48,742 bases of DNA from a virus. The stretch lies in IMG/VR virus record IMGVR_UViG_3300021093_000117, positions 1 through 48,742 of that record; one strand, written 5' to 3'. Shown here in pieces: positions 2,661 to 47,683 of this stretch. A program made the translations under genes and the position numbers. The first letter of the stretch is position 1, and each line of letters opens with the position of its first letter. The notes below the pieces were generated by a model. The model was not told the DNA's origin. It searched no databases and was given only the letters and a program-made list of their open reading frames with translations.

Positions 2661-2695
2661 GATAAAAAATAAGTTTATAGTTGGTAAACTAAAGT

Positions 2696-2703
2696 ATTTA
2701 TAG
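2696..2703 (+). promoter_or_regulatory. TATTTATA late-type box
   Basis: Eleven bases before the ATG of the lectin frame. On the other strand it reads TATAAATA, the T4 late promoter, and could serve the leftward transferase gene. Confidence 0.45.
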
Positions 2704-2714
2704 AATAAAGAAAA

Positions 2715-3716: not shown

Positions 3717-3758
3717 AAAAGATAGATTTTATACCATTTTGATTTATATTTTTTTATA

Positions 3759-4691
3759 ATGAAAAATATTTGTATTGATGTTACGGGTTGTAGAGCTTTG
3801 GGAGATACTTTATGCGTTACACCAGTTGTTAGAAAAATATGTCAAACTTATGATAAAAAAGTCACGGTAATATCTCACCACCCTGAATTATTCTCCAACT
3901 CTCCTTATGTTGAAAACAGCTTCGGGTATGACACAACTATATTGAATTGGCTAAAAGACAATTGCGAAGTTCTTTCAACTTTTGATGTTTCATACAAAGA
4001 AAATGGTGTTTGTAACAAACATAATGTTATGGACATCAGACAACTTCACGCAATAAATTTAGGATTCATGTTAACAAAACATGAAATGACCTTAGATTAT
4101 TTCCCGAAAGATGTGATACTTCTAGATCTACCAAAAAAATATGTTTTAATACATCCTGTACAAAATTGGAACTCAAGAACTTGGTCTACCAAAAATTGGC
4201 AAATATTAACCCAACTTTTAAATGAAAAAGGAATTCATGTTATTTCTATTGGAAAAGATTCTTCTGAGTTAGGAGGGTCAAATGTTGATAAACCAGTTTT
4301 CAACTTCCCAATTAAACTCGGATATAACTTAATGAATCAAACTACTTTGGATCAAACTTGGCACCTCATAAATAATTCGTCTTGTTTTGTTACCATGGAT
4401 TCAGGTCTTTTACATTTAGCAGGAACAACTGACTGTGAAATATTACAATTAGGTAGCTCAATAAATCCTGAGTTTAGGTCACCATATCGAAACGGATCTC
4501 AAGAATACAAATATCGTTACGTAATAGGTGGGTGTCAACTACATTGCGCTTCTGACATGAAGTACGGAGTTAGAGAATGGGGTTCCATTCAAGGGGTGCC
4601 TTCATTGGTTGATTGTTTAGAAAAAAAAGAATCGTTCGAGTGTCATCCTCAAGTAATACAAGTTTATAAAAAAATATTAGAGATAATTTAA
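3759..4691 (+). CDS. Glycosyltransferase family 9 (heptosyltransferase-like)
   Basis: The 310-residue GT-B protein has the GT9 hallmarks: a first strand and loop with CRALGDTLCVTPVV at residues 11-24, IHPVQNWNSRTWS in the middle, and VTMDSGLLHLAGTTD at 211-225, which forms the sugar-nucleotide pocket. GT9 enzymes transfer heptose or related sugars from nucleotide donors. Four cysteines near the C-terminus (259, 263, 286, 295; GGCQLHC then DC and FEC) recall the metal-binding Cys clusters of TibC-type heptosyltransferases, but the spacing differs and a metal site is only a suggestion. The gene lies between the lectin frame and a Pro-Thr-repeat protein. Its target is unknown: it could be virion proteins or host surface glycan. 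Confidence 0.8.
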   Translation: MKNICIDVTGCRALGDTLCVTPVVRKICQTYDKKVTVISHHPELFSNSPYVENSFGYDTTILNWLKDNCEVLSTFDVSYKENGVCNKHNVMDIRQLHAINLGFMLTKHEMTLDYFPKDVILLDLPKKYVLIHPVQNWNSRTWSTKNWQILTQLLNEKGIHVISIGKDSSELGGSNVDKPVFNFPIKLGYNLMNQTTLDQTWHLINNSSCFVTMDSGLLHLAGTTDCEILQLGSSINPEFRSPYRNGSQEYKYRYVIGGCQLHCASDMKYGVREWGSIQGVPSLVDCLEKKESFECHPQVIQVYKKILEII

Positions 4692-4715
4692 TAAGGACCA
4701 AATTACTTTACAAAG

Positions 4716-4723
4716 TATTTATT
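4716..4723 (+). promoter_or_regulatory. TATTTATT late-type box
   Basis: Ten bases before the Pro-Thr adhesin ATG. Confidence 0.45.
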
Positions 4724-4733
4724 GTAAAGTTGT

Positions 4734-6875
4734 ATGGATTGTTCCGCATTAATTATTGAAAGTGTTAATTACGATGGTGAGTTGGCTAATATTATATTTA
4801 CGCCAGACAATGAAGATATCTCAATAAATTTAGGAGATGTTGTGTTACCCTTTTTATTTGAGCCTTGTAATCTTGTACCTCCAAGAGAAAGATTCGGATT
4901 CTATACAATTTTGACATATAACCCAAGATGTACAAACTTCCTTAGAGTACCAAGAACAACCCCAACACCTACACCGACACCAACACCGACTCATACTCAG
5001 ACACCAACCCCTACACCAACAATGACCCCTACACCTACGTTTGATCCTTGTTTGGTACCAACACCCACACCAACAGTTACTGTTACTGCAACAATAACCC
5101 CAACTCCTACACCAACCCCAACAGAAACTTGTACAAACCCTTGTGGGTGTCCAAACCCATCACAAACACCCGTACCAACAAATTCACCTTTACCTCCACC
5201 TCCACCACCTACATGTACAAACCCTTGTGGGTGTACTTTAACCCCAACGGTAACACCAACTCATACACCAACTCCCACACCAACTAACACACCAACTCCC
5301 ACACCAACCCCAACAGAAACAACTGACGCTGCCTCTCTATGTGTACCATTATTTTTAGACAGAGACAATGCAACATCATCATCAAATTTATATTCTTATA
5401 ACCCAACAACAAATATCACAACTTCGCTAGCACTACCTTTGTCTTCAGGATTTTTTGGTTTAATAATGGCTCAAACATCTAATAAATTGTGGATTTGTGA
5501 AAATTCAACTTACACAATTCGAGAATGGGACATAACAATTAACCCTTGGTCGGCAGTTTTTTCAAGAGACATTACATCACCTAGCGGGGTTCCAAGTTTG
5601 GGGGCCTTGGCAGGGGCTCTTTGTGTTTATAGAGATCCGATAACAAACATTGTAAATCCAAATCTTTTAGTATCCATGGGATTCCGTAGTGGCGGTGGTT
5701 TTGAACTTGTTTTAGTTGATATAAGTGGATCTGTATGGAGTAAAATACCAATATTCAATTTAACAACGTTGAGTGCCGATAGACAAGTAAGTGCTATTGT
5801 TATGAATACTAATTCTAAAATGATAACATTAAATTTTGATACAACTTTATCTCAAAAATATGTAACTCAATTTAAATATGTTTCGGGTTCTTGGCAAGTG
5901 GATATTGACATATTGATTCCAGTACCAACTTTAATTCATTCATTATTTCAATGGAATAATGATTTTTATATTGGTTCATATACCCCTTTAGGTTTTGGGG
6001 CTCTTAATTTAATACAAACTTCACAACCATATACTACCACATTTCTTGGAAATCTTTTACAATCTGAAACAATAGAGTCTTCTCAAATACCCGGTTGTGT
6101 AACATTGGAGTTTGATCCAGTTCAATTAAGTTGTGCGGTTTACAGTAGAGGTATTAATGGTTACATTGAAACTTACGATTTAATCAACAACACTTTAACA
6201 CAAGTTACATTACCAAATGATAGTTTTAGTAATTTTCCTATAACACATACATCTACTAAATTGTGGAAAGCCGATCAGGCCAATAAACTAATAAATGAAT
6301 GGACGACATCAACTCCGGCTTCTATGTCATTTGTAAGAACAATAACGGTTACGGCAACCTTACCAGGAAATGGTTGGTTATGGCCTATGGGATCAATTAC
6401 AGACACAAGATTAATTATGTTTACAACAAATTTAGTTAATAGTATAAATGTAATTGAGATGGATATCACATTCAATACCGTCACAAACTCAGAAATTACA
6501 CAATTGTTTCAAGTACAAGCACTTAATTTAGGTGAGTCAATAATGTATACCTCGAACAATAAAATCATATTAATGGCAAGAAAAAACTCGGCCCCTTATA
6601 CGGATTTATATTTTATACAACAATATTCATACCCTAACGGTGTTTTGGAATTCGACATAAGTACTTTACCTCTCGGAGTTCCAAGTATATCGAGATATTA
6701 TTCTTTATTTGAAGAATCTAATCGAATTTATATTGTTAGAATGGACTCAACAGGGACTTCTATTTTCTTGGTTGGTTTAACTCCGCCTCACACATTTACA
6801 CCTGTTTGGTCATCAACAAGTACAAATTACGGAGTTTGGTCAGCATCAAGAACATGTAACACAGTTAATTTTTAA
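4734..6875 (+). CDS. Virion adhesin-like protein with Pro-Thr repeats, Cys motifs and a C-terminal propeller-like domain
   Basis: The 713-residue protein has three parts. Residues 1-75 form a small beta-rich domain ([26 protein letters not shown]). Residues 77-200 are low-complexity PTPTPTPT linker broken by two copies of a CTNPCGC motif, whose DNA is nearly identical at about 5128-5155 and 5214-5237. Residues 203-713 are a long domain with repeated blade-like segments such as [18 protein letters not shown] and [16 protein letters not shown], consistent with a beta-propeller although the family was not identified. It sits directly before two other virion-type genes and starts 10 bases after a TATTTATT box. 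It is likely a tail- or capsid-attached binding protein; ligand and virion position are unknown. The Thr-rich linker is a plausible glycosylation target. Confidence 0.65.
4962..5320 (+). repeat. Pro-Thr coding microsatellite (adhesin gene)
   Basis: A CCAACACC/CCTACACC-type repeat coding PTPTPT, broken by two near-identical CTNPCGC-coding units. Confidence 0.85.
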
Positions 6876-6878
6876 AAA

Positions 6879-7175
6879 ATGCCACAAATACAACTATCAG
6901 GAATAACAGGATGCTCACCTTACAATATTATAGTTTGTGATGTTACATATTCTTTGTGTATTTTGGTTTATTCTTCAATCACACTACCTCCTTTAATTTC
7001 ATTTGTACCACCACCACCACTTGATGTTGCCGAGAGTATTATTTTGGAAATACAAGATTCCTGTGGGTGTTCATCTTTTGTTGTACTAGAATGTCCTGAC
7101 AAAGCAAAACTATTCCAAGACAGTACAATTTTATTGATGATGGATGGTGATGTCTATCTATTTCAGAATCAATAA
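6879..7175 (+). CDS. Small virion-type hypothetical protein
   Basis: This 98-residue protein starts three bases after the stop of the Pro-Thr protein and is probably co-translated with it. It is beta-rich: IQLSGITGCSPYNIIVCDV, a proline run (VPPPPLD), then LEIQDSCGCSSFVVLEC, and a final LLMMDGDVYLFQNQ. The SCGC motif echoes the PCGC motifs of the upstream gene. No catalytic motif, signal peptide or membrane segment is visible. The position between an adhesin-like gene and the collagen-like fibre suggests a structural or fibre-attachment role, which is inference only. Confidence 0.6.
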   Translation: MPQIQLSGITGCSPYNIIVCDVTYSLCILVYSSITLPPLISFVPPPPLDVAESIILEIQDSCGCSSFVVLECPDKAKLFQDSTILLMMDGDVYLFQNQ

Positions 7176-7183
7176 TATTTATA
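7176..7183 (+). promoter_or_regulatory. TATTTATA late-type box
   Basis: Seven bases before the collagen-like fibre ATG. Confidence 0.45.
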
Positions 7184-7190
7184 AAATAAA

Positions 7191-9182
7191 ATGCCAAACT
7201 ACGCTTTTCTTACGGATCAATTACCAGCACCTCCTTTGACATCAACGGATTTAATTCACGTTGTAATACCAACTGACTTGTCTCAAGGTAACCCTGCTGG
7301 TTCGTCCTACAAGGCAACTTTGGCACAAGTTGCTACGGCAATTGGTAGTGGGACATCAGGTACATCAGGGACATCAGGTACATCGGGAGCGAATGGAACT
7401 TCAGGTACAAATGGTACGTCAGGTATCAATGGAACTTCAGGTACAAATGGTACAAATGGAACTTCAGGTGCTAGTGGAACATCGGGTACTAACGGAACTA
7501 ACGGTTCTTCAGGTACTTCGGGAACCAACGGTTCTTCAGGTGTGAATGGAACGTCGGGTACAAATGGAACTTCAGGCGTAAATGGTACTTCAGGTACAAA
7601 TGGAACTTCAGGCGTAAATGGAACGTCGGGTACAAATGGAACAAATGGGACTTCGGGTACAAATGGAACAAATGGGACGAGCGGAACCTCTGCATTGGGG
7701 ACAAGTGGTACTAATGGAACTTCAGGTACTAACGGGACAAGTGGTGCTAATGGTACTTCAGGTACTAACGGGACAAGTGGTGCTAATGGGACTAGCGGTT
7801 CTAATGGAACTTCAGGTACTGACGGAATTAATGGGACATCAGGTACTGACGGAATTAATGGGACATCAGGTACCAACGGTACTAATGGAAGTAGTGGGAC
7901 ATCAGCCGTAGGTACAAGTGGTACCGATGGAACATCAGGTATTAATGGAACTAGCGGTGTGAACGGTACTTCTGGTATCAACGGTACTAGTGGAATAAAT
8001 GGAACATCAGGAACTAATGGTTTTGATGGGACTTCTGGAACAAATGGAACTTCAGGTACTGATGGAACTTCAGGTACTGATGGAACTTCGGGTGTAAATG
8101 GGACATCGGGTACAAACGGAACAAATGGGACATCGGGTACAAACGGAACTTCAGGTACAAATGGAACATCGGGTACAAACGGAACTTCAGGTACAAATGG
8201 AACAAATGGGACGAGCGGAACCTCTGCTTTGGGGACAAGTGGTACTAATGGAACTTCAGGTACTAATGGGACTGACGGGATTAATGGAACTTCGGGCACC
8301 AACGGTACTAATGGAACATCAGGTATTAATGGGACTAGTGGTACAAACGGTACAAACGGTACTTCTGGTATCAACGGTTCTAGTGGAATAAATGGAACAT
8401 CAGGAACTAATGGTTTTGATGGGACTTCTGGAACAAGTGGAACTGATGGGACTTCAGGTAAAGATGGATCCGCCGGTACTAACGGAACATCAGGTACTAC
8501 ACCATTACCTTCTCAAGTAGATACGGTTACAAACAACAATGACCAAACATTTTTTCCTACATTTGTTGATTCCAATAACCCTACCGCTGTTCAAGAGTTT
8601 TTATACACAGACGTTGGATTTACATATAATCCATCAACAAATACTTTACAGGTTGACGGCTATGTTCGAACAGGTAATGGTAGTGTTTCTTTACCAAGTT
8701 TTTCTTTTAGTTCGGACACCAATTTGGGTCTTTATAGAATAGCACAAGATACCGTTGGTGTAACAACGGGTGGTCTTAGAAGAATGTCTATTGATAATGT
8801 TGGTACTGTCAATTTGGGTGCGGGGGCTTCAGGTTCAATGAATTTTGATTTAGAGGGGGGGGTTACAACAACTAACGCAACACCAACTACTTTAGTTACA
8901 ATAACAACAAGTAATAATAGAAGATATACAGTCGAAGGTTGGGTAATTGGTGGGGCAATAAACCATACAATCGGTGGAAAAGTTTTAGGGGTTTTTGAAC
9001 ATGTAGGAGGTGTTTTAGCTGTTGTGGGAAGTCCAGTGACCACGTTGTTTGAAGATTTTCCTGGTCCCCCAACCTTTACCTTAGACACCAGCGGAACAAC
9101 AATACGTTTAAGAGTTACAGGACAAGCGGGGACAAACATTTCTTGGTACGGTAAACTAGTTTATGTTATGTCGAAGGAGTAG
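7191..9182 (+). CDS. Collagen-like tail fibre protein
   Basis: The 663-residue protein opens with a short globular head (YAFLTDQLPAPPLTSTDLIHVV) like other phage fibre N-termini. Residues about 54-440 are Gly-rich repeats of the GTSGTNGTSG type, in which Gly at every third position indicates a collagen-like triple helix. They end in PLPSQVDTVTNNNDQTF and a beta-rich tip that includes LGLYRIAQDTVGVTTGG, a motif frequent in fibre C-termini. The last 120 residues (TTLVTITTSNNRRYTVEGWV) form a jelly-roll-like tip. Nearly every repeat contains Asn-Gly-Thr or Asn-Gly-Ser, which are sequons, and many Ser/Thr. The stop is TAG. The gene lies next to the glycosyltransferase island, so its shaft is an obvious candidate substrate. 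A box at 7176-7183 is 7 bases from the ATG. Confidence 0.8.
   Translation: MPNYAFLTDQLPAPPLTSTDLIHVVIPTDLSQGNPAGSSYKATLAQVATAIGSGTSGTSGTSGTSGANGTSGTNGTSGINGTSGTNGTNGTSGASGTSGTNGTNGSSGTSGTNGSSGVNGTSGTNGTSGVNGTSGTNGTSGVNGTSGTNGTNGTSGTNGTNGTSGTSALGTSGTNGTSGTNGTSGANGTSGTNGTSGANGTSGSNGTSGTDGINGTSGTDGINGTSGTNGTNGSSGTSAVGTSGTDGTSGINGTSGVNGTSGINGTSGINGTSGTNGFDGTSGTNGTSGTDGTSGTDGTSGVNGTSGTNGTNGTSGTNGTSGTNGTSGTNGTSGTNGTNGTSGTSALGTSGTNGTSGTNGTDGINGTSGTNGTNGTSGINGTSGTNGTNGTSGINGSSGINGTSGTNGFDGTSGTSGTDGTSGKDGSAGTNGTSGTTPLPSQVDTVTNNNDQTFFPTFVDSNNPTAVQEFLYTDVGFTYNPSTNTLQVDGYVRTGNGSVSLPSFSFSSDTNLGLYRIAQDTVGVTTGGLRRMSIDNVGTVNLGAGASGSMNFDLEGGVTTTNATPTTLVTITTSNNRRYTVEGWVIGGAINHTIGGKVLGVFEHVGGVLAVVGSPVTTLFEDFPGPPTFTLDTSGTTIRLRVTGQAGTNISWYGKLVYVMSKE
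7345..8500 (+). repeat. Collagen-like coding tandem repeats
   Basis: About 1.15 kb of short units that code GTSG, GTNG and GINGTSG. Larger blocks are duplicated inside: 7655-7730 recurs near 8190-8265 (offset 534 bases), and the segment from 7992 recurs from 8385 (offset 393 bases). Both offsets keep the frame. Confidence 0.9.
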
Positions 9183-9274
9183 ACTCGGTGAACGTGTATT
9201 TTGTATCATGTTTACCTGGATACCTCAGCTTAAAACAATTTACATTTCTTGTATTTTACAATATTTTTATTTTT

Positions 9275-10519
9275 ATGAAAATATTTGTACAAATTGCGTC
9301 TTATAGAGACCCACAGTTAATACCAACAATTCAAAACATGTTGGAAAATGCTAAAAATCCAAATAATTTAGTCATATCAATTGCAAGACAATTTAATCCT
9401 GAGGATAAATTTGATGACCTTTCGGAGTATGAAAATGACAAAAGATTTAAAATTTTAAACATAGATTATAAAGAATCAAAAGGTGTTTGTTGGGCAAGAT
9501 ACCTCACTCAACAACAATATGATGGAGAAGAGTATACATTACAAATAGACTCTCACATGAGATTTGAAAAAAATTGGGACAAAACTTTGATTGATATGAT
9601 AAAAGATCTACAATCAAAAGGACACAAAAAACCTTTGTTGACAGGTTACGTGTCATCTTTTGACCCTGACAATGACCCAAAAGGTAGGGTTATGGAGCCT
9701 TGGAGAATGGCCTTTGACAGGTTCACACCTGAAGGTGTGGTTTTCTTTCTACCTGAAGTCATTCCAAATTGGAAAAAACTTGATGGTCCTATACCTGCAA
9801 GATTCTATTCGGCACACTTCTGTTTTACTTTAGGTGAATTTTCTAAAGAAGTACAACATGATCCCGAATTTTATTTCCACGGCGAAGAAATATCAATTAC
9901 TGTAAGATCATTTACTCATGGTTATGATTTATTTCACCCACACAAAGTTGTTATATGGCACGAATACACACGAAAAGGAAGGACTAAACAATGGGACGAT
10001 GACAAAAATTGGTATAAAAAAAATGAGGCGTGTCATATAAAAAACAGACAGTTGTTAGGCGTTGACGGTGAAATTTATAGTGGAGACACTAATGAGTGGT
10101 TTGGTACTGAAAGAAGTATACGTGACTATGAAAAGTATTCGGGGTTGTTGTTTGAAAAAAGAGCAATACAACAATATACATTAGATAAAAGTTATCCACC
10201 AAATCCATATGATTATAATACTGAAGATGAGTGGAAAGAAACTTTTTTATCAATATTCAAACATTGTATTGACGTTGACTTAAATAGACTACCTGAAACT
10301 GATTATGATTTTTGGGTTGTTGCATTTCACGACAAAAACGATGAAACAATATACAGACAAGACGCAGGTCTTGACGAAATAAACCGATTGAAAACAGATC
10401 CTGACGGTGTTGCTAAAATATGGAGAGAATTTAATACCCAAGAAAGACCAACTTATTGGGTAGTTTGGCCACACTCAACATCCAAAGGATGGTGTGAAAG
10501 AATTGTAGGAGCACTTTAA
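9275..10519 (+). CDS. GlcNAc-transferase-like glycosyltransferase (GT60, PF11397-type)
   Basis: I place the start at the ATG at 9275 (MKIFVQIASYRDPQL), giving 414 residues. An upstream start at 9188 would add a hydrophobic stretch unrelated to the family. Family features are ASYRDPQLIPTI at the N-terminus, LQIDSHMRF with Asp92-Ser-His94 in the place of a DxD metal motif, AHFCFTLGEF, FHGEEISI (His202-Gly-Glu-Glu) and IWHEYTRKG (His229). PF11397 includes the Dictyostelium Skp1 GlcNAc transferase, which modifies hydroxyproline, and mucin-type Thr enzymes, so the family acts on protein. Residues 330-414 hold an extra C-terminal domain (EWKETFLSIFKHCIDVD, YWVVWPHSTSKGW) of unknown role. The gene follows the collagen-like fibre gene at 92 bases and leads a tightly packed enzyme operon. 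Confidence 0.8.
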   Translation: MKIFVQIASYRDPQLIPTIQNMLENAKNPNNLVISIARQFNPEDKFDDLSEYENDKRFKILNIDYKESKGVCWARYLTQQQYDGEEYTLQIDSHMRFEKNWDKTLIDMIKDLQSKGHKKPLLTGYVSSFDPDNDPKGRVMEPWRMAFDRFTPEGVVFFLPEVIPNWKKLDGPIPARFYSAHFCFTLGEFSKEVQHDPEFYFHGEEISITVRSFTHGYDLFHPHKVVIWHEYTRKGRTKQWDDDKNWYKKNEACHIKNRQLLGVDGEIYSGDTNEWFGTERSIRDYEKYSGLLFEKRAIQQYTLDKSYPPNPYDYNTEDEWKETFLSIFKHCIDVDLNRLPETDYDFWVVAFHDKNDETIYRQDAGLDEINRLKTDPDGVAKIWREFNTQERPTYWVVWPHSTSKGWCERIVGAL

Positions 10520-10523
10520 TAAT

Positions 10524-11282
10524 ATGAATAAATTTTGTTTTTTATCTGAAGCTAATTACCCTAACTATACCAAAAGACTCAAGGACTACAACCTAAAACG
10601 TTATTTAGATTTGGGGCTTGATATACCATTTTATATCTCAACAAATCGACCTTACGATTTTTTAGAGTATGAAAATCACCCATTGATAAAAGTTTTTGAT
10701 ATTGAGGATTTAAGAAAAAATAATAAAAATTCACAACTTAATGAACCTTTACCAACGGACCCTAAAGGAATTTATCCCGCAAGGTACCCATGGAATCTTA
10801 GGCGTTTTATATTAAGAAAGGCAATCGAGGACGGATTCAATGGACTATTTTTTTTAGAGTGTGATACAAAAATATCTGATCACACAACAAAAGAAGATTT
10901 GATTTCTTTTATGAATGAAATTTATGAACCAAACACAGTTAAAACTTCTTCTGCTAGATTTGTATACAAAGATAGGCAACCAAATCAAGAGTTATTTTAC
11001 TATCACCCAACTTACATAACGGACTTACAATTAAATTTTAATGATGATCAATACGACACTTTAGACGGTACTAATCAATTATTTTTTGGTGATTCTCAGA
11101 ATTCTCTTTTAAAATTTTTAGATAATTGGGATTTTATTTGTGACTACGGTTATCAAAAAGGTTACGGTTATAAAACAGGATACTTATCTAATCTTTCATT
11201 TATAATACCAATGTCGGGATTTAGACTAATTCATAGACACACACCATTTGTTACGGATCATAAATTTGAAGATAGGTACTAA
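10524..11282 (+). CDS. GT-A-fold glycosyltransferase-like protein, family not identified
   Basis: The 252-residue protein begins MNKFCFLSEANYPNYTKR. A central strand LFFLECDTKISDHTT looks like the metal-binding acidic motif that ends the nucleotide-binding half of GT-A enzymes. It is followed by TLDGTNQLFFGDSQNSLLKFL and a late RLIHRHTPFV with paired His. Its stop overlaps the next start (TAATG), and it starts 4 bases after the previous stop, so it belongs to the enzyme operon. Substrates are unknown. Assignment as a glycosyltransferase is by fold-like motifs and context only. Confidence 0.5.
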   Translation: MNKFCFLSEANYPNYTKRLKDYNLKRYLDLGLDIPFYISTNRPYDFLEYENHPLIKVFDIEDLRKNNKNSQLNEPLPTDPKGIYPARYPWNLRRFILRKAIEDGFNGLFFLECDTKISDHTTKEDLISFMNEIYEPNTVKTSSARFVYKDRQPNQELFYYHPTYITDLQLNFNDDQYDTLDGTNQLFFGDSQNSLLKFLDNWDFICDYGYQKGYGYKTGYLSNLSFIIPMSGFRLIHRHTPFVTDHKFEDRY

Positions 11283-12097
11283 TGGAGAAAAAACTAACGG
11301 TAGTTATTGTCGGTCATCTGCTTGATAACTTTATTTTTTATTTAAAATATCTAATACATAGCTTACCTGAAAGTCTTAAAGATTGTAAGTTTATTGTACA
11401 TTATGATAATAGTGACGGGTTTGATGAAACGAAATCTCGTAATGAAATAGAAGGTTTGTTAAACTCCAAAAATTTAAATTACAAATTAAGTTTTAGTTTT
11501 GGTGGTTTAATTTCCTCAATAAAAAAATGTTTGGAAAAAATTGAAACCGATTATTATTTGTTTTTAGAACATGATTGGGTTTTCTTAAACAAAACTAATA
11601 TAGAGTTTAATAAAGTTGTTGAGGTTTTTGACAAATATAATTTTGTTAATTGTGTATGGTTTAGTAAAGACGACAACACCCAACGTGGGTTTGAAATTTG
11701 TCAGGATCTTACGGGAAATATTACTCCGTTTGCTTTAGAAAAAAGAATTAAAGAATTAAATTTAATTACAACATGTCGATGGTCTAACAACCCTGTAGTA
11801 TTTCGGACTTCAAAAATGAAAAAATGGTTTAGTGATTTTATAAATAATGAACACGTGGGCAAACTAAATCAAAGACAAGGTAATGTTGAGGAAAAAATGA
11901 TTTCTGTTTATAGAGAATATATTTCTAAAAATAAATGGGACGAGATCAAAGATGATTGGGGTACTTACTTGTATGGTAACTTTAATGAAGGTCCTTATGT
12001 TGGTCATACCGACGCATCAAAAAGATATCAAGGATTAAGTAAAAGCCAACCAGAAATAAATGGAGAAAATTACATAAAAAAATATAAAAATGTTTAG
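11282..12097 (+). CDS. GT-A (GT2-like) glycosyltransferase candidate
   Basis: The 271-residue protein begins with a strand-loop typical of GT2-like enzymes (KLTVVIVGHLLDNFIFYLKYL). It continues with FIVHYDNSDGFDETKSRNEI, then an acidic motif in YYLFLEHDWVFLNKTNI where His-Asp replaces the usual DxD, and RWSNNPVVFRTSKMKKW. The ATG overlaps the previous stop by one base, and the TAG stop overlaps the next gene start by 8 bases, so translation is coupled. No membrane segment is seen. It could equally be a GT-A relative without catalytic activity; donor and acceptor are unknown. Confidence 0.55.
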   Translation: MEKKLTVVIVGHLLDNFIFYLKYLIHSLPESLKDCKFIVHYDNSDGFDETKSRNEIEGLLNSKNLNYKLSFSFGGLISSIKKCLEKIETDYYLFLEHDWVFLNKTNIEFNKVVEVFDKYNFVNCVWFSKDDNTQRGFEICQDLTGNITPFALEKRIKELNLITTCRWSNNPVVFRTSKMKKWFSDFINNEHVGKLNQRQGNVEEKMISVYREYISKNKWDEIKDDWGTYLYGNFNEGPYVGHTDASKRYQGLSKSQPEINGENYIKKYKNV

Positions 12098-12827
12098 TAT
12101 TTTAGGATTGAATTTTGCTAACAAGGGTTATTTTATAAATCTACCTCAAAGTACTGATAGGTTGAAAAACGTTCGTAATTTAGAAAAAAAATACAACATC
12201 AAAGGTTTAGAAAGATTTGAAGCACTAACGGATGAATTACATGCCTATTCTTGTACTAAAAGTCATTTGAAAATATTTCAAAATTCCAAAGAACAAAATT
12301 TAGAAACTATTTTTGTTGCAGAAGACGATTTTAACATTGAAGACACTTCTTACTATCCCGGTCAACGTAAACACTTAAAACCAACTCTACAACAAGTCCA
12401 CAAAGATTTACAAAAAGTTCATTGGGACGTTTTATTATTTGGTTGTAATCCGAAAGAAATTATGGTTAAAGTAACTGATTGTCTTTACACAATACCAAAA
12501 AGTACTGGAGCTTGGGCTTATATTATTAAAAAAAATGCTTATGAATACATTTTAGATAATTTGAATTATAGAAAAGATTACATAGCAATTGACGATTATT
12601 TACCTTTATTAAATTCCAAAGGTTTTACAACATTAACGACGGTACCCCTATTAATCAATCATGCGGTTGGTTTTGTATCTACATTACAACCAAGAGGTCC
12701 AGTAAATTACGATGTATGGATACAAGGGAACTATCATAATTTTGTGTACGACACAGAACAATTTAAAATAAAAAAAGTAGAACCAAATAAAATTCAAATA
12801 CACCAATTAAAAAAAGTTTTTAAATAA
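12090..12827 (+). CDS. Glycosyltransferase family 25 (LPS-type)
   Basis: The 245-residue protein carries the GT25 signature: GYFINLPQSTDRLKNVRNLE near the N-terminus, HAYSCTKSHLKIFQ, and ETIFVAEDDFNIED with the acidic metal motif. A second region contains VLLFGCNPKEI, SKSTGAWAYIIKKNAYEYI-like residues (KSTGAWAYIIKK) and AIDDYLPLL, matching the second conserved acidic motif. GT25 members add galactose or glucose to lipooligosaccharide or to hydroxylysine of collagen. That second activity is suggestive beside a collagen-like fibre, but family membership alone does not say which acceptor is used. The start overlaps the upstream stop and the next gene begins one base after its stop. Confidence 0.75.
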   Translation: MFSILGLNFANKGYFINLPQSTDRLKNVRNLEKKYNIKGLERFEALTDELHAYSCTKSHLKIFQNSKEQNLETIFVAEDDFNIEDTSYYPGQRKHLKPTLQQVHKDLQKVHWDVLLFGCNPKEIMVKVTDCLYTIPKSTGAWAYIIKKNAYEYILDNLNYRKDYIAIDDYLPLLNSKGFTTLTTVPLLINHAVGFVSTLQPRGPVNYDVWIQGNYHNFVYDTEQFKIKKVEPNKIQIHQLKKVFK

Positions 12828-12828
12828 T

Positions 12829-15147
12829 ATGAAAAACATAATAAAATCAATATTAAATTTTGAAAACAACAAAATTGACGCTTCAATTATTAGTAGTGAA
12901 CAAATTTCTCATATTGTAAAAAACTTAACTGAAGTTTTACAAAAAAATCTTGAAGGGGATGTGGTTGAATTGGGTTGTTATGTTGGAGAATCATCCAAAT
13001 ATATTAGAAAAACATTGGATGTATTCGAATCTTCAAAAACCCTAACTGTGTTTGATTCTTTTGAGGGTTTACCTCCTTTGAGTGAGTATGAAATTAATAC
13101 AGGATGGAAACCATCAACGTTAAAAACCACAGAAGACGTACTTAGAGGAAACTTTGAAAATAATGGGTTGACACCACCAAAAATAGTAAAAGGGTGGTTC
13201 AAAGACATTAATGAAGAAGATTTACCTGAAAAAATTTGTTTTGCTTTTTTAGACGGAGATTTTTACGATTCAATATACGATAGTTTGAAAAAGATATATG
13301 ATAGAATGGTTGACGGTGGAGTTATTCTTTTTCACGATTTTAAAAGATTTGATTTGCCAGGTGTTGACGCTGCAATTAAAGTTTTTTTCAAACAAAAAAA
13401 TATTCCATATAATTTAGAAGTTGTGTGTAGTCAATTAGGCAGACACGTTGTTGGCGGACCAATACCTGTTGTAAAAAGTAAAAAAATTACTTTGGTTACA
13501 GGTCTTTGGAATATAGGTCGAGATTCATTAAAAGAAGGTTGGTCAAGAAGTTATGATCACTATCTAAACAAATTTTCAGATTTATTAGATATCGATTGTA
13601 ATTTGATAATTTTTGGTGACGAAGAATTAGAAAAATTTGTGTTCAATAAAAGAGAGCCCGATAACACACAATTTATTCTCAGAGATATAAGTTGGTTTAA
13701 AAACAATGAGTTTTATAATCAAATTCAACAAATAAGAAAAAACCCTAATTGGTATAGTTTAGCGGGTTGGCTTGGGGACTCAACACAAGCAAAATTAGAG
13801 ATGTATAACCCATTGGTTATGTCAAAAATGTATTTATTAAACGATGCTAGAATATTAGACAAGTTCGATTCTGAAAGTTTATATTGGATTGATGCCGGTC
13901 TGTCCAACACGGTAAGTATGAACTATTTCACTCATGATAATGTTTTAGATAAAATAGAATCTTTTGATAAGTTTTTCTTTGTTTGTTTTCCATACAACGC
14001 GCACAATGAGATTCATGGATTCGAGTATTCAAAAATGAATGATTATACCAATCAAAAAATTGACAAAGTTGCAAGAGGAGGTTTTTTTGGTGGTCCAAAA
14101 AAAACGATCGAGATTCTAAATACGATGTATTATTCTTTAATGCAAGATAGTTTAAACAAAGGATTAATGGGTACTGAGGAAAGTTTATTTACAATCCTAC
14201 TTTATAATAACCCAACTTTGATTGACTACTTTGAAATATTACCTGATGGTTTATTATACACATTTTTTGAAAATTTAAAAAACGGTTCTGCGGTTTTAAA
14301 AAACGCATCCAAAATAAAAGTTGTGAGTAATAATACAAATGGTGAAGTAGGGTTATATGTAATAACATTTAATAGTCCCGAACAATTTGAATTTTTATTA
14401 AAATCAATGGATGACTATGATGAAAATATACTGTTGAAAACAAAAAAATATTTATTAAACAATTCTACAGACCCTAACACATTTTCAAGATATCAATCAT
14501 TATGTGACCAATACGGGTTTGAACACATAAAAAAAGATAACATTGGTATTACAGGAGGTAGGGTTTTTGTTGCAGAACATTTTGACCAATCAGAAATGTC
14601 ATATTATATGTTTTTTGAAGACGATATGTCTTTTTATTCTGGAAGAAAAGGGGTTTGTAAAAATGGATTTAATCGTTACGTTGAAAACTTTTACAACAAA
14701 ATGTTATCTATAGTAAAAAAAGAAAATCTCGATTTTTTAAAATTTAACTATACCGAATTTTATGGCAGTCACGAAAAACAATGGTCTTGGTATAACGTAC
14801 CTCAAACTTTCAGATCTAAACATTGGCCACAGAATCAAAATTTACCAACCCACGGACAAGACCCGAATTCTCCATCGTTAGAATTTAAAAACATTAAATC
14901 TGTAGAAGGAATTCCTTATGCGACTGGAGAAATATATCTCTCGAATTGGCCAATTATAATGAGTAAAGAAGGTAATTATAAATGTTACTTGGAAACAAAA
15001 TTTGCAAATCCTTACGAACAAACCCTAATGTCTCATTGTTACCAAGAAACCGTCAAAGGAAGAATAAAATCGGGGGTTCTTTTGATGACACCAACTGAAC
15101 ATAACAGATTTGACTTTTATGCTGCAGAATTGCGAAAAGAATGTTAG
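12829..15147 (+). CDS. Three-domain TylF-like methyltransferase / YibB (HtrL, WlaTC) glycosyltransferase-like / GT-A fusion
   Basis: The 772-residue protein joins three enzyme-like domains. Residues 1-215 are a TylF/MycF-type O-methyltransferase: VVELGCYVGESSKYI with the SAM-binding acidic residue at Glu47, FDSFEGLPP, and FAFLDGDFYDSIYDSL with the metal-binding acids. Residues 217-490 match the HtrL/YibB family: ITLVTGLWNIGRDSL, WSRSYDHYL, LYWIDAGLS near 350, and GGFFGGPKKTIEIL. Residues 505-772 resemble a GT-A domain: VGLYVITFNSPEQFEFLL and MFFEDDMSFY, with Glu-Asp-Asp at 597-599. A sugar methyltransferase fused to transferases suggests that it extends and methyl-caps a glycan, which is inference. 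It is the last gene of the enzyme operon; the stop is TAG. Confidence 0.75.
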   Translation: MKNIIKSILNFENNKIDASIISSEQISHIVKNLTEVLQKNLEGDVVELGCYVGESSKYIRKTLDVFESSKTLTVFDSFEGLPPLSEYEINTGWKPSTLKTTEDVLRGNFENNGLTPPKIVKGWFKDINEEDLPEKICFAFLDGDFYDSIYDSLKKIYDRMVDGGVILFHDFKRFDLPGVDAAIKVFFKQKNIPYNLEVVCSQLGRHVVGGPIPVVKSKKITLVTGLWNIGRDSLKEGWSRSYDHYLNKFSDLLDIDCNLIIFGDEELEKFVFNKREPDNTQFILRDISWFKNNEFYNQIQQIRKNPNWYSLAGWLGDSTQAKLEMYNPLVMSKMYLLNDARILDKFDSESLYWIDAGLSNTVSMNYFTHDNVLDKIESFDKFFFVCFPYNAHNEIHGFEYSKMNDYTNQKIDKVARGGFFGGPKKTIEILNTMYYSLMQDSLNKGLMGTEESLFTILLYNNPTLIDYFEILPDGLLYTFFENLKNGSAVLKNASKIKVVSNNTNGEVGLYVITFNSPEQFEFLLKSMDDYDENILLKTKKYLLNNSTDPNTFSRYQSLCDQYGFEHIKKDNIGITGGRVFVAEHFDQSEMSYYMFFEDDMSFYSGRKGVCKNGFNRYVENFYNKMLSIVKKENLDFLKFNYTEFYGSHEKQWSWYNVPQTFRSKHWPQNQNLPTHGQDPNSPSLEFKNIKSVEGIPYATGEIYLSNWPIIMSKEGNYKCYLETKFANPYEQTLMSHCYQETVKGRIKSGVLLMTPTEHNRFDFYAAELRKEC

Positions 15148-20689: not shown

Positions 20690-21026
20690 TCCCGTCAGAA
20701 GAAATAATATACCAATGTTGCTGAACAAATTGAAATTGCACACAAGCCCCTTTTTCAATTGTTAGTTCGTCCCATTCTTGATCTACCAATCCAAAATCTG
20801 GTTTAATTATGACTGTTGTTAATGATTTTACCGTAACCTTATCATTAACTGATGAATTTAATGTAACTTCACATAAATCAACGTTTAAAACAACAACTAA
20901 GTTTTCGGTTCCTGTGGTATAGGAAGAAGATTCCACTATGACTGAAGAATTCTTTTTATCTATCTTATGATGGATAACTTTTTGAGTTTGTATTTTAATA
21001 ATGTCTTTACGATTAGTTTTTGTCAT
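20676..21026 (-). CDS. Small hypothetical protein, possibly virion-associated
   Basis: This 116-residue protein is beta-rich after a basic N-terminus (MTKTNRKDIIKIQTQKVIHH). The C-terminal half alternates strands and turns (VNDKVTVKSLTTVIIKPD, GACVQFQFVQQHWYIISSDG), which suits a small sandwich fold such as those of decoration or fibre proteins. Its ATG overlaps the stop of the neck-like gene in an ATGA arrangement, so the two are translationally coupled and may act together at the head-tail junction. Its TAG stop lies inside the 3' end of the converging polymerase gene. I do not recognise the family. Confidence 0.6.
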   Translation of the reverse strand: MTKTNRKDIIKIQTQKVIHHKIDKKNSSVIVESSSYTTGTENLVVVLNVDLCEVTLNSSVNDKVTVKSLTTVIIKPDFGLVDQEWDELTIEKGACVQFQFVQQHWYIISSDGIKLS

Positions 21027-22147
21027 ATAACATAAATTTGTCTTGGCATTGGTCTGAACTTCAAAGTTTTGTTCAAATTTTCAGCTAAAAGAGCTTCTCG
21101 TTCTAATACTTTATCTGGTCTTAATCTTGTCAAACTTCCTTCAGCACCTGTTAACTGCTCAATTAACTTCAATTTTTCGTCTTTTCCTTCGGTGGCTAAC
21201 GTAGTATATTCCATAGTTAAGTCACCATCAGGGGTTTTCAAGTTACCACTAAATTTACCCCTTACTTTTGATAAAGTTTCTTTACAAGATGCAATGAAAT
21301 ATTTCCTTACCCATTGTTGTGCGGGATTATTTAAATCATCCCAACTAAGTTTTTCAAAAGGAACTTCAGAGGGATCTTTAATTATATCAGGATTATCTCT
21401 TCTACATTTGTCTTTGTCTCCATCGGTTGTATCATAATACCAATACCAAACTTTCCCCCTCATTAAAGTCGCGTTACCGAAGTCAAATTTACCTCCCGGT
21501 GTATTCATCAAGTGAACAGCTTTCTTTCCGTCAGGTAGTGCGGTAACTCTATAAGTTAAGTCACCAGCAATAATTCTTCTTTGGATGTTAATTTCTTGCA
21601 TTCTCAATAACATATCAAATGCCGGCATCAAAAAGTAACTTCCTGAAACATTACCTACTTGAGCGTACCCTGCCGGACCTGAGATACCTCCCCCAGCAAT
21701 ACCACCAAAAGCCCATGGATCAAATAACATATTATTTAATTCCGCAGGACTAAACCAAAGTAATTCATTTAATTCTCTATTAGCAGGAATCTCATAGATT
21801 TGGCGGCCCCTTTCTAATTGTATGTAATCTTTCTTTAATACCCAATCACCCCCTGTTTGTAGACCTGCAATCTTTGAATATGCATAGGTGTACCTTGTTT
21901 CAAAATCTAAACTTTTAGTAAGGAACGCTCTTGATAATGATTGTGTCTCAACATTCAACCCCCAAAGATTAGTCCAATTTGATTCTATTAACCAATTTTG
22001 TATAAACTCGGAATAATCATCAATCGAAAATTCCAATAGAGTATCCATTTGTTCATCTTCTAACTCTATTGATCTCAACGGTGCACCTAAGACATGCCTC
22101 ACTTTTTGATATAGCTTAGTTCTATCAGGTTCATTAATAATTGACAT
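21023..22147 (-). CDS. Neck protein candidate (T4 gp13-like)
   Basis: I choose the ATG at 22147 (MSIINEPDRTKLYQKVRHVLG), giving 374 residues. A frame start at 22240 would run back into the previous gene and across its promoter-like box. The N-terminus has the helical head-completion pattern (LGAPLRSIELEDEQMDTLLE, then IDDYSEFIQNWLIES) seen in gp13-type neck proteins. A Gly-rich loop follows (GGIAGGGISGPAGY), and the last third is helical (KYFIASCKETLSKVRGKF, DKVLEREALLAENL). T4 gp13 joins the filled head to the tail. Here the gene is on the opposite strand from the other tail genes. A TATTTATA box on its strand ends 13 bases before the ATG. The stop is TGA. Confidence 0.5.
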   Translation of the reverse strand: MSIINEPDRTKLYQKVRHVLGAPLRSIELEDEQMDTLLEFSIDDYSEFIQNWLIESNWTNLWGLNVETQSLSRAFLTKSLDFETRYTYAYSKIAGLQTGGDWVLKKDYIQLERGRQIYEIPANRELNELLWFSPAELNNMLFDPWAFGGIAGGGISGPAGYAQVGNVSGSYFLMPAFDMLLRMQEINIQRRIIAGDLTYRVTALPDGKKAVHLMNTPGGKFDFGNATLMRGKVWYWYYDTTDGDKDKCRRDNPDIIKDPSEVPFEKLSWDDLNNPAQQWVRKYFIASCKETLSKVRGKFSGNLKTPDGDLTMEYTTLATEGKDEKLKLIEQLTGAEGSLTRLRPDKVLEREALLAENLNKTLKFRPMPRQIYVI

Positions 22148-22169: not shown

Positions 22170-24362
22170 TTATTGGTCACAAATAATTTTATTTCTATCT
22201 TTTTTCGGCACATTATTAACAACGCCAACAACCTTACCATTTCCTTGATATCTGTAAACTTTTAAATTATCTATGTTTGGTTTTATTCTAAATCTTATAG
22301 ATAATCTTTTTTCTAAACATCCTCTTTGCCCTTTGTTTGACCAATAAAGATCAATATTTTCTATTGGTACTATAAGATTATTTTCGTATATAATTCCTGC
22401 AATTTGTGATTTTACCTTTTGTAAATAAGAAATTGCGTTTTTATTTTCGGTTAACCAAACATATATCCTATTAATAAGTTCATTATACAAACTAAGATAT
22501 TCTTTTTTGTGAATTTTCAAATTACTTTCTTTGAAAATGGAAAAAAATTCAGAAAGATAACTATCAATAAAAGGATCCATTTTCTTAACTTCAAAATTAG
22601 ATTTTCCTGAAAAAATTAAATTACCTTCCTCATCATATAAATCATTTTTACTTTCTAAATCTGATTTAATATAGTACGAACCTTTCCTAAATGAATTGTA
22701 CAAACAACTTGTTATTTGAAAAAAGAAAAAATCTAAACTTAGTTTTTCACTTTTAACGGATTGAAGTGTCTCAAAAAATTTTTGTTTTTGATCGTCTGAA
22801 CATCTATAGTTAAGTTGGAGTTTTGTTGGTTTGTATAAAAAATCGTCCCCCTCAAAACTTTTTTCATATTCTTGATGTGAAAGGGATCTTACGTATGAAA
22901 CTAATTCATCTATAGTATCAGGAACAACTGAAGTTTTTTTCAAAGATTTTATAATTTTAGATTTCTGATACGGGTCAATTTTTTGGGAGACGATAAAATC
23001 TGAAATTAACTCTAAAAAGTTTTTGGTTTTTTCTTCGTTTACTAACGAAAGATCAACAATAATTGGAAAACTACCTACGACTTTTTTTTCAAAAAATTTA
23101 TCAAGTACTAATATGGATCTTTCTAAACTTTGAATTATTGATCGGTCAGTCAAATTATCTCTATACTCTTGTAACTTACAAAATGGTGAATCTTTTATAT
23201 TTTGAGAATGTGCGTAGTCACATAAGTAATCTATTTTTGAATTTGTTCTTACCGCAATTTCATTTATTGTGGTTTTACTTTTTTTTTTAGATTGGTAGAG
23301 CTGATTTACAAACTCCCAATTTACTGATGACCAAAAATTTTTAACGTATTGGTCTCTTTTATTTTTATATCTCAGGTAGTATGCGTGCTCCCAAACATCT
23401 AATCCTAAAATAGGAAACCCACCCTTTTCAACCACATCCATCATAGGATTGTCTTGATTTGGTGTCGACATAATTTTTAAATTTCCGTTTTTCAAAACGA
23501 TCAACCAAACCCATCCCGATCCAAATCTATCTAAAGCAACTTGATTAAATTCATCCTTCAAATTCTTTAAACTACCAAATTGACTATTAATTTTTTTTAA
23601 AATTTCTCCTTTCGGTACTTGTTTTGTTGGGGATAACATTTTCCAAAACAATGCATGATTAAACGCCCCACCTGCGTTGTTTCTTATTTTGTCATTATAT
23701 TTTCCTACCTTTAAAATTATTTCTTCTAAATCTAAATCTCCATAGTTTTTTTCAGATAAAGCGTCATTTAATTTTTTAACATAACCTTTGTAATGTTTGT
23801 TATAATGAACATCCATTGTCATTGGGTCAACAAATCTTTTAATTGCTGAATATGAATATGGTAATTTTTCTATACCAATTTTTTTCATTTCGGTTATAAA
23901 ACCTTCATGAATCGATTGTTTTTCATTTATTAAAATATTCTCGTTCAGTTTGTTAACTTTGTTTTCAAAAACGTAATTCTCATACATCATCTCCTCTTGT
24001 TGGGGATTTTCCTTTTCAAACATTTTAACTAATCTTCCTGCAAAGGCATTTGCCTCGTCTTCATTTCTTCCGCCAATGTTTGGTCCGTGTTTTCTATTTA
24101 GAATTGTCCTCTGATGTTCATGAACCCACTCGTGTGATAAAGTTCTTAAAATATCTCGGTTCATTCGATTCTTAGTTAAAATTTTTATTTTATCGTCCAT
24201 TCTACTTCCAGTAGTCATTTCACCATATCGTTCACCTAAAAATTCGATTGTGACATCATTTTTTAAGGTAAATTCTTTGTTTAAAAATTTTATAAAAGAA
24301 TTGATCAATGATTTATCATTATCAGATAAACCCGAATTTACGTATTTTACAGTAACTTTCAT
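22170..24362 (-). CDS. Zincin-like metalloprotease + Mn-type superoxide dismutase + unknown C-terminal domain fusion
   Basis: One uninterrupted 730-codon frame. Residues 1-130 hold a zinc-protease motif, SHEWVHEHQ (His77-Glu78-x-x-His81), with EDEANAFAGR at 101-110 offering a third glutamate ligand. Residues 162-357 are a complete Fe/Mn superoxide dismutase: LPYSYSAIKRFVDPMTMDVHY (His186), GGAFNHALFWKML (His236), LDRFGSGWVWLIV, and LGLDVWEHAYYL (Asp322, His326), so all four metal ligands are present. Gly231-Gly232 before the second ligand and Gln303 in STPNQDNPMM are Mn-type features. Residues 370-730 are a helix-rich domain that I do not recognise. SOD converts superoxide to peroxide and oxygen. 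The protein has no signal peptide. It starts 25 bases after the SNF2 gene and precedes the neck gene, so it may be packaged in or attached to the virion, which is inference. Confidence 0.85.
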   Translation of the reverse strand: MKVTVKYVNSGLSDNDKSLINSFIKFLNKEFTLKNDVTIEFLGERYGEMTTGSRMDDKIKILTKNRMNRDILRTLSHEWVHEHQRTILNRKHGPNIGGRNEDEANAFAGRLVKMFEKENPQQEEMMYENYVFENKVNKLNENILINEKQSIHEGFITEMKKIGIEKLPYSYSAIKRFVDPMTMDVHYNKHYKGYVKKLNDALSEKNYGDLDLEEIILKVGKYNDKIRNNAGGAFNHALFWKMLSPTKQVPKGEILKKINSQFGSLKNLKDEFNQVALDRFGSGWVWLIVLKNGNLKIMSTPNQDNPMMDVVEKGGFPILGLDVWEHAYYLRYKNKRDQYVKNFWSSVNWEFVNQLYQSKKKSKTTINEIAVRTNSKIDYLCDYAHSQNIKDSPFCKLQEYRDNLTDRSIIQSLERSILVLDKFFEKKVVGSFPIIVDLSLVNEEKTKNFLELISDFIVSQKIDPYQKSKIIKSLKKTSVVPDTIDELVSYVRSLSHQEYEKSFEGDDFLYKPTKLQLNYRCSDDQKQKFFETLQSVKSEKLSLDFFFFQITSCLYNSFRKGSYYIKSDLESKNDLYDEEGNLIFSGKSNFEVKKMDPFIDSYLSEFFSIFKESNLKIHKKEYLSLYNELINRIYVWLTENKNAISYLQKVKSQIAGIIYENNLIVPIENIDLYWSNKGQRGCLEKRLSIRFRIKPNIDNLKVYRYQGNGKVVGVVNNVPKKDRNKIICDQ

Positions 24363-24387: not shown

Positions 24388-26151
24388 TTATTTTTTTTTG
24401 TTAATTAGATTTAGTATTTCTTCCAACGTATCTCCGAGTTCTTCTTGAGGTTCGTCACCCATCACGGTATTGATGATTTTCTTTTTCTTATTTAAGATGT
24501 CATAAATTGCACCTTCGATTGTATTTTCAAATAAAGGATAATAAACCAACACGTTTGATTTTTGTCCATATCTGTAAGCCCTATCTTCTGCTTGTGCATG
24601 TTCAGCGGGAACAAAAGATAAATCGTTCATAATAACAACCTCAGCCGATGTTAGTGTTAAACCAACACCAGCAGCTTTCAAGTTACCAACAAAAACTTTG
24701 ATTTTTTCATCGGTTTGAAATGAATCAACGGATTGTTGTCTCATTGCATTTGAACAACTTCCATCAAGATAGACCGCTTGTTTTCCAAAATGTTGATAAA
24801 TTGTTTGTAGAGTATCTGTAAAATTAGTGAATATGATTACTTTTTTTCCTTGTTCTAAAATGTTTTCAGCAAATTCAATTGTTTGTTTTACTTTTTCGTT
24901 TGCAATTACTTTTCTAACTTTCATTAATTTAGAAAATTGTATTGTAAGAGATTGAGATTCTTCGGTTTTATTTTCATACCAATCATAATACTCACCCATA
25001 AGATTTTCATATTCTGTGGATTTTAAACGTAAATAAACAGGAGTAATAATTTTATCAGGAAGATCTAATACATTTTCTTTTAATCTTCTCAACACTTGTT
25101 TTGATGTTCGGTCACGTAGTTCTTCTAAATTTGACGCACCTGTTACATTCCAAACTTTTCTTTTTCCTGCAATGAATTGATATCCTTGGCAATATCTTAT
25201 AGCATACGCCATCCAATTTTGAGCGACAGAATTTTCTATTATACTTAATAAATTGTAATAGTTCATTGGTCGTGATGTCATCGGAGTTCCAGTTAATAAC
25301 CAAACTCTTTTAACTTTTTTTACAAAACTATTTATTATTTTTGTTCTTTGAGCTTGTACGTTAGAAATCATATGTGCCTCATCCAAAATCACTAAATCAA
25401 AATTGGATTGTTCTAACAATGAACTTTCTTTGTCTTTAGAATTGTGGAAATTTTTTAATATATCATAATTTACAATTACAAAATCAGAATCGACAGAATA
25501 TTTTTTTCCCTCACAAATAAAAGTAGGCCTGTTTGAATAGTTCTCAATTTCTCTTTGCCAATTAATTTTTAATGATGCGGGACAAACAATTAATATTTTT
25601 TTTGCCCCTGTCTCTAAAGCTGCAATAATTGTTGAGGTAGTTTTACCAAGTCCCATGTCGTCGGCTAAAATAAATCTTTTAGATCCTACTAACTTTTCTA
25701 TGGCTTCTTTTTGGTGTGAAAGTGGCGGTCTATGATTATATTTAGAGTAATCAATTTCAACTTTATCAACAGAGTGAGATTTTATAAGAGCTGATTTTGG
25801 TATCCAAAATTCACTCAACACATCTTTTTCAAAGAACTTAGCCCAAACGTGATAGGATTTTTCTTTTTCTACTAACAATTTCTCAATGAATATTTTTTCA
25901 GGAGTTTGGAACAGGTATTTTTCTTCTGCAAACTTTTCAGCAAAATATGTATCTAACTCAACCCATTTTCTTGCAACTTTGGGTGTTGTGTCAAAATAAT
26001 TTATTACATAGTCCGCTTGAGTTCTTGTAGGAAAAAACTTTTTAGAAGTATCCTTTTTGTTTTTTAAAAAAATAATATAGTTGTTTGCACCTGAATACGA
26101 ATCAAGTAACTCCAAAGCTTTGTGTTCTAATAAAGATTTAGTAGTTGTCAA
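24388..26151 (-). CDS. SNF2-family DNA helicase/ATPase
   Basis: The 587-residue protein starts at TTG 26151 (TTGACAACTAC) because no ATG precedes the conserved part. An N-terminal region of 140 residues is followed by Walker A DDMGLGKTTS (167-172), VCPASLKINW (Ia), a DEAH box in VILDEAHMIS (257-260) and LTGTPM (III). The second RecA domain has VIIFTNFTDTLQTIY, DGSCSNAMRQQSVDSF, AAGVGLTLTSAEVVIMND and an AEDRAYRYGQ arginine-finger motif. The order and sequences are those of SNF2 enzymes (SMARCAL1/RapA-like annealing or remodelling helicases). In phages such enzymes may remodel forks or recombination intermediates. It leads a leftward operon with the SOD fusion. Confidence 0.9.
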   Translation of the reverse strand: MTTTKSLLEHKALELLDSYSGANNYIIFLKNKKDTSKKFFPTRTQADYVINYFDTTPKVARKWVELDTYFAEKFAEEKYLFQTPEKIFIEKLLVEKEKSYHVWAKFFEKDVLSEFWIPKSALIKSHSVDKVEIDYSKYNHRPPLSHQKEAIEKLVGSKRFILADDMGLGKTTSTIIAALETGAKKILIVCPASLKINWQREIENYSNRPTFICEGKKYSVDSDFVIVNYDILKNFHNSKDKESSLLEQSNFDLVILDEAHMISNVQAQRTKIINSFVKKVKRVWLLTGTPMTSRPMNYYNLLSIIENSVAQNWMAYAIRYCQGYQFIAGKRKVWNVTGASNLEELRDRTSKQVLRRLKENVLDLPDKIITPVYLRLKSTEYENLMGEYYDWYENKTEESQSLTIQFSKLMKVRKVIANEKVKQTIEFAENILEQGKKVIIFTNFTDTLQTIYQHFGKQAVYLDGSCSNAMRQQSVDSFQTDEKIKVFVGNLKAAGVGLTLTSAEVVIMNDLSFVPAEHAQAEDRAYRYGQKSNVLVYYPLFENTIEGAIYDILNKKKKIINTVMGDEPQEELGDTLEEILNLINKKK

Positions 26152-47455: not shown

Positions 47456-47683
47456 ATGACAAACACTAAATTAATTTTAGACAACTTTTTAGGAAAAAAT
47501 ACAAGAGTTTCCGAAAAAGATTTAGGTGACGGAACCAAACAAGTTTGTGACTTAGATACAGGAGATTGTTACACAATCAGAATGAAAGACGGACTTATTG
47601 AAAGAGTCGACAATACGATGAAACAAAATAGAAGAGTTCAAGTAGAAACCAAAACAGGTATAAAACAATTATTGAATGGTTAA
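47456..47683 (+). CDS. Small hypothetical protein (75 residues)
   Basis: A basic, beta-hairpin-like protein: ILDNFLGKNTRVSEKDLGDG, QVCDLDTGDCYTIRMKDGLI, ERVDNTMKQNRRVQVETKTG. Cys pairs at CDLDTGDC could form a turn. It has no recognised family. Its TAA stop overlaps the start of the Gly-Pro-rich gene, which implies a shared mRNA and perhaps a shared role in virion assembly. Location after baseplate genes and before gp32 gives little further help. Confidence 0.55.
   Translation: MTNTKLILDNFLGKNTRVSEKDLGDGTKQVCDLDTGDCYTIRMKDGLIERVDNTMKQNRRVQVETKTGIKQLLNG

Follow-up and report, generated by a model that had tools for sequence, protein, structure and literature searches.

In phage T4, the prohead protease gp21 cuts after L/I-X-E, and processing is inhibited when Asp occupies the cleavage position (PMC9026906). 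A capsid-targeting peptide is thought to load varied proteins in T4-like phages, and T4 is able to package and deliver fused β-galactosidase or GFP (PMC9026906). In the T4 protein Alt the cleavage sites are ITE-6 and LTE-619 (PMC5694885). A precedent for a virion-packaged viral superoxide dismutase (SOD) is found in the chlorovirus PBCV-1, whose Cu/Zn-SOD (A245R) is packaged in virions and is believed to reduce the superoxide of the cells it infects (PMC7019647); it differs from the enzyme described here in being an unrelated Cu/Zn enzyme, encoded by a single-domain gene of an algal virus. Phage SODs of the Mn/Fe type occur in Wroclawvirus (e.g. MIJ3/PA5oct) and in Vibrio phage 2.275.O. They belong to the same Pfam family as the domain described here but are only about 27–30% identical, have 182–189 residues in a single domain and lie in other neighbourhoods; those we inspected, from Pseudomonas and Vibrio phages, are standalone genes.

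Here we analyse a gene in a stretch of viral DNA of 48,742 nucleotides (IMG/VR record IMGVR_UViG_3300021093_000117; the window) in which an HExxH domain, a complete Mn/Fe-type SOD and a third domain, C1, are joined in one chain (Table 1). The earlier note on this DNA knew of no described system with the HExxH–SOD fusion and, as far as the open-access literature goes, we too have found it described nowhere. One close parallel is with the T4 internal proteins IPI, IPII and IPIII and with Alt. Long relatives carry a gp21-type protease and a gp23-type capsid gene, (I/L)xE sites are present, and the presumed cargo is interchangeable and poorly conserved, as in T4, where Alt is cut at both ends. In T4, however, each cargo protein stands by itself and bears a targeting peptide at its N-terminus, whereas here there are several modules per chain, the first without such a peptide, and one of them is a SOD; hence we say that the gene may work like these proteins, not that it is a member of their class.

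Table 1 Features of the fusion gene and its two neighbours (window coordinates)
Feature	Position	Strand	Basis
Whole gene, 730-aa ORF: HExxH domain – SOD – C1 domain	22170..24362	(-)	
HExxH domain "MP", residues 1–128	23979..24362	(-)	standalone genes, AlphaFold model, zincin fold
HEWVH motif, residues 77–81	24120..24134	(-)	H77, E78 and H81 invariant in 25 sequences
E101 (E-x-x-A-N), invariant, candidate third zinc ligand	24060..24062	(-)	assigned by motif
Linker 1, residues 129–163: LNE 139–141, INE 145–147, IHE 151–153, ITE 156–158	23874..23978	(-)	
Mn/Fe-type SOD, residues 164–358: ligands H186, H236, D322, H326; second-sphere Q303	23289..23873	(-)	
INE, residues 366–368, SOD/C1 linker: predicted prohead-protease-type site	23259..23267	(-)	
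C1 domain, residues 369–730	22173..23258	(-)	
C1 conserved motif D568...E591-V-K593	22584..22661	(-)	
SNF2-like helicase gene, directly upstream, conserved neighbour	24388..26151	(-)	
Neck/head–tail adaptor gene, directly downstream, conserved neighbour	21023..22147	(-)	

The gene and its three domains

The gene is a single uninterrupted frame of 730 residues with an ATG start (24362–22173, minus strand), ahead of which no clear Shine–Dalgarno sequence was seen. A gap of 25 bases separates it from the preceding helicase gene, and one of 22 bases from the probable start of the neck gene that follows, placed at 22147 because relatives begin MSII or MAII. The same gene recurs between helicase and neck in dozens of IMG/VR contigs: 61 loci were found when viral contigs were first scanned, and HExxH–SOD fusions account for 95 unique ORFs. 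The order common to the SOD-bearing loci is tail sheath, two small genes, helicase, fusion, neck, a 115-aa gene and DNA polymerase. An artefact of assembly, which the earlier note had raised, is ruled out by the many independent contigs with identical gene order, and its placing of the gene between a helicase and a neck gene was correct. The carriers, in which the SOD is real and conserved, form a group of T4-like phages from water, all of them uncultured. In one group of loci (L010–L012) an extra 234-aa gene lies between helicase and fusion (L010:5091–5792 (+)) and matches phrog_16348 (E = 6e-7, unknown function). Elsewhere in the window (2–15147), a glycosyltransferase-rich block with a TylF-type methyltransferase surrounds a 663-aa collagen-like (GTSGTNG) gene resembling a tail fibre, possibly for virion glycosylation.

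Pfam, PDB and motif searches agree with the earlier reading of the chain as an HExxH domain, a complete SOD and an unmatched C-terminal part. The first domain also occurs alone, as a gene of 128–140 residues in other phages. AlphaFold predicts a zincin fold for residues 1–128 with confidence (pLDDT 91.8), with the HExxH motif on a helix beside a mixed sheet and the candidate third ligand on a later helix. In VIA comparisons it resembles YbeY-like 1oz9 (Z 9.8, rmsd 2.7, 107 aligned) and, at Z of about 9, M1 aminopeptidases and Wss1. The label metalloprotease used in the earlier note is supported for fold and motif only, the domain being assigned to no family. For membership of the ImmA/IrrE peptidase family M78 (PF06114), a tempting link to IrrE-controlled oxidative stress, there is no more than a hint: a single relative matches, below threshold (14.3 bits against a cut-off of 22, E = 0.036), the likeness of E-x-x-A-N to M78 is by eye only, and M78 is not among the VIA matches listed.

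The SOD domain is matched by Sod_Fe_N (PF00081; residues 164–244, E = 3e-19, 69.6 bits against a cut-off of 27) and by Sod_Fe_C (PF02777; residues 250–354, E = 1e-39, 135.2 bits against 20.9). The best PDB match of residues 166–358 is a Mn/Fe-SOD (E = 7e-64), and the domain aligns end to end with solved MnSODs. All four metal ligands are present as previously noted and, together with H190, Y194 and Q303, are invariant in 95 of 95 unique phage SOD domains. The Gln at position 303 and the best matches, which are MnSODs, are cues to metal type, metal use itself not being readable from sequence. Because it is under such strong constraint, the SOD probably works as an enzyme and is not just a fold that was recruited, and the seven invariant active-site residues speak against an inert structural part. 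Among the sampled sequences, the SODs of phages group in a single clade (support 0.91) beside those of Bacteroidota (Cytophagales, Chryseobacterium), the closest cellular relatives found, which are as much as 52% identical across the full domain.

The 362 residues of C1 have no family match in Pfam, PHROG or PDB, as the earlier description of some 360 unknown residues had implied. The AlphaFold model is fairly confident (pLDDT 86.8, pTM 0.73); it has no match in the PDB and one in BFVD, an uncharacterised marine phage protein. The invariant D568, E591 and K593 recall the motif of PD-(D/E)xK nucleases, a putative assignment in favour of which no Foldseek, VIA or profile match stood out.

Exchange of modules among relatives

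Domain architectures were counted over unique ORFs with profiles for four domains. The HExxH domain stands alone, with other neighbours, in 21 ORFs and is followed by SOD in 33, by SOD–C1 in 30 and by SOD–C2 in 32, while in 11 a SOD precedes another domain of 280 residues, C3. SOD–C1, SOD–C2–C1 and C1 alone are also found, and a fourth tail, C4, is carried by some HExxH–SOD ORFs (693–699 aa). C2 and C3 are related to each other (hhalign 96%, E = 3e-9); C1, C2/C3 and C4 are mutually unrelated in the profile comparisons made. The conserved G-x-D...Q-(V/I)-K-P of C2/C3 and D...S-C-K of C4 recall PD-(D/E)xK enzymes, as does the D...E-V-K of C1. Searches of isolate phages for C1 and C2 found neither.

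The slot between helicase and neck varies in a similar manner. It holds SOD–C3 in G011, whose HExxH domain has its own gene at another place, a SOD gene of 239 residues alone in G005, and C3 and C1 genes without SOD in G007. The last shows that C1 exists by itself, the search for which had been proposed in the earlier note. The same note had held that a separate SOD gene in related genomes, with the fusion an artefact, would count against it; the separate gene is there in G005, in the same slot, but the fusion is real and widespread. This variation also bears on a reading of the protein as a virion component, structural or associated with tail or neck, with zincin and SOD placed in the neck or entry device of the particle. 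Its conserved position beside the neck gene would suit such a role, but the slot does not behave like an essential part and the catalytic residues of the SOD are conserved beyond structural need, and we consider the reading improbable.

The C-terminal type changes about 24 times by parsimony across 63 SODs (shuffled mean 33), an approximate figure as the SOD tree is shallow. So many changes, and the nuclease-like motifs, could indicate that C1, C2/C3 and C4 are mobile nucleases, inserted after SOD and propagated through homing or recombination, in which case the fusion itself would have little function. We give this explanation little credence: the insertions are in frame and follow a conserved linker, disrupted target genes were not seen, and no nuclease fold or sequence match stands out.

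(I/L)xE sites in linkers and leaders

The (I/L)xE linker that joins the modules is the new observation here. At least one such site is present in 50 of 50 non-redundant linkers between SOD and the C-terminal domain, usually two, with a typical pattern K-(L/I)-x-E-S-...-(I/L)-x-E-(A/G/S/N), as in KLDESVTTKKIISEG or INEIA. In total there are 94 sites, compared with 25.7 ± 4.5 in shuffled linkers. The enrichment is specific to an offset of 2: the reverse orientation gives 34, offsets 1, 4, 5 and 6 show no enrichment and offset 3 only a z of 3.3, although these linkers share descent and z-scores therefore overstate their independence. Across linkers the corresponding (I/L)xD is not enriched (5.5 vs 11.4 per 1000). 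The linker is kept ahead of three unrelated families (C1, C2/C3 and C4), whereas none of the 15 proteins that end after SOD has an (I/L)xE tail. A count of 0 in 3 for the linkers between C2 and C1 was discarded as a boundary artefact, since the two domain matches overlap; in L136 the sequence between C2 and C1 reads ..LNLTESKKIVITKKQLQRITEA.

In the linkers between HExxH and SOD the motif occurs in 52 of 52, within an amphipathic helix rich in E, I and L. The raw linker enrichment (83 vs 9.7 per 1000) overstated the case here: against composition-matched background windows it falls to 1.5-fold, each linker having 3.1 sites compared with 2.0 (median p 0.37), and the excess is not significant for single linkers.

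Short leaders containing (I/L)xE (e.g. MKIIISESQ) are found on standalone SOD genes and on most standalone C1 genes. An (I/L)xE within residues 4–33 is present in 49% of background ORFs. Similar leaders are carried by endolysin-like proteins of related phages, so that a leader of this type does not by itself mark head cargo and could mean something else. Several further genes have leaders of this kind. Divergently oriented to the HExxH-alone gene is one whose product starts M.KK(L/I)(L/I)I(T/N/S)E.EK..IK.LY... (L052:5117–5941 (-), and similarly placed in L041, L043, L044 and L060); the L052 product is GH19/endolysin-like, the leader family being common to lysins and possible head proteins. A phage lysozyme and a SleB-type cell-wall hydrolase gene with MKIIITESQ leaders adjoin C1 genes (L105:5059–6012 (+) and L098:5065–5922 (+)). 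In a 995-aa relative (L100:2027–5014 (+)) a membrane-like stretch is strung together with a second HExxH-like region (AHEIQHMLE) and with C1, and LNIILTEDQYKKL is repeated before modules; in the window itself a Pro/Glu-rich protein (47676–48440 (+)) has a leader-like N-terminus, ..NSINKYIKE↓QAEPP.

Because the modules occur separately, swap between relatives and are joined by stretches rich in (I/L)xE, it is doubtful that the fusion acts as one working enzyme, and after maturation its parts may be proteins of their own. One alternative is an intracellular auxiliary enzyme of several domains, in which the SOD is an antioxidant in the infected cell, the zincin and C1 are fused partners and the (I/L)xE stretches are mere helical linkers. 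The fully conserved active site of the SOD is consistent with this, as are the common occurrence of (I/L)xE in E-rich helices and the non-structural settings of standalone phage SODs (between clpS/ibpB and hypothetical genes in MIJ3, beside a topoisomerase in Vibrio phage 2.275.O). It leaves unexplained why (I/L)xE at a specific offset precedes unrelated domains and is absent where SOD ends the protein, and why standalone modules have (I/L)xE leaders. On balance we judge it unlikely, if the most serious of the alternatives.

Possible prohead processing and head cargo

Peptidase_S77 (E = 1e-23 to 1e-25) and Gp23 (E = 1e-64) are both found in five long relatives (G001, G004, G007, G008 and G011), of which G001 and G004 carry HExxH–SOD–C2 and G007 carries C1 alone. 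In the two capsid proteins that were read, those of G001 and G007, a predicted propeptide of 60 residues ends ..YLINE↓ATSD and ..FLINE↓ATSE, respectively, and small proteins near these capsid genes start, for example, MDRLNKIIKRVIKE↓ATSD. Neither gp21 nor gp23 was found among the scanned genes of the 48.7-kb window, the record being a fragment.

The match of the (I/L)xE linkers to the gp21 motif, together with the S77 and gp23 genes and the LINE↓A propeptides of the relatives, leads us to favour a head-cargo polyprotein, a reading that we hold to be about as probable as its opposite. The precursor (zincin domain – SOD – C1) would enter the prohead core, where a gp21-type protease would cleave the (I/L)-x-E sites of the linkers at head maturation and release a free Mn/Fe-SOD and its partner modules. 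These would remain in the head with the DNA and be ejected on infection, the SOD then removing superoxide met during entry and takeover. What the zincin and C1 domains do is inferred, as are cleavage, packaging, ejection and the activity of the SOD. There are reasons to hold back: no N-terminal capsid-targeting peptide was found on the window protein, whose chain opens directly with the zincin domain, endolysins carry similar leaders, (I/L)xE is common in the background and the linkers share descent. Two roles proposed in the earlier note, blunting an oxidative host defence and protecting packaged DNA during entry, would each fit the head-cargo reading.

Somewhat more tentatively, we propose that these phages exchange SOD, zincin and nuclease-like modules bearing prohead-protease sites, such that one gene could deliver several separate proteins along with the DNA. 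Within the reach of our search, one of these would be the first phage SOD injected into a bacterium. If this is true, a phage head carries an antioxidant enzyme and delivers it together with the genome, a sign that superoxide encountered in the opening minutes of infection affects how well the phage succeeds. The bounding of modules by (I/L)xE would then also provide a sequence rule for finding ejected effectors in the many uncultured T4-like lake phages.
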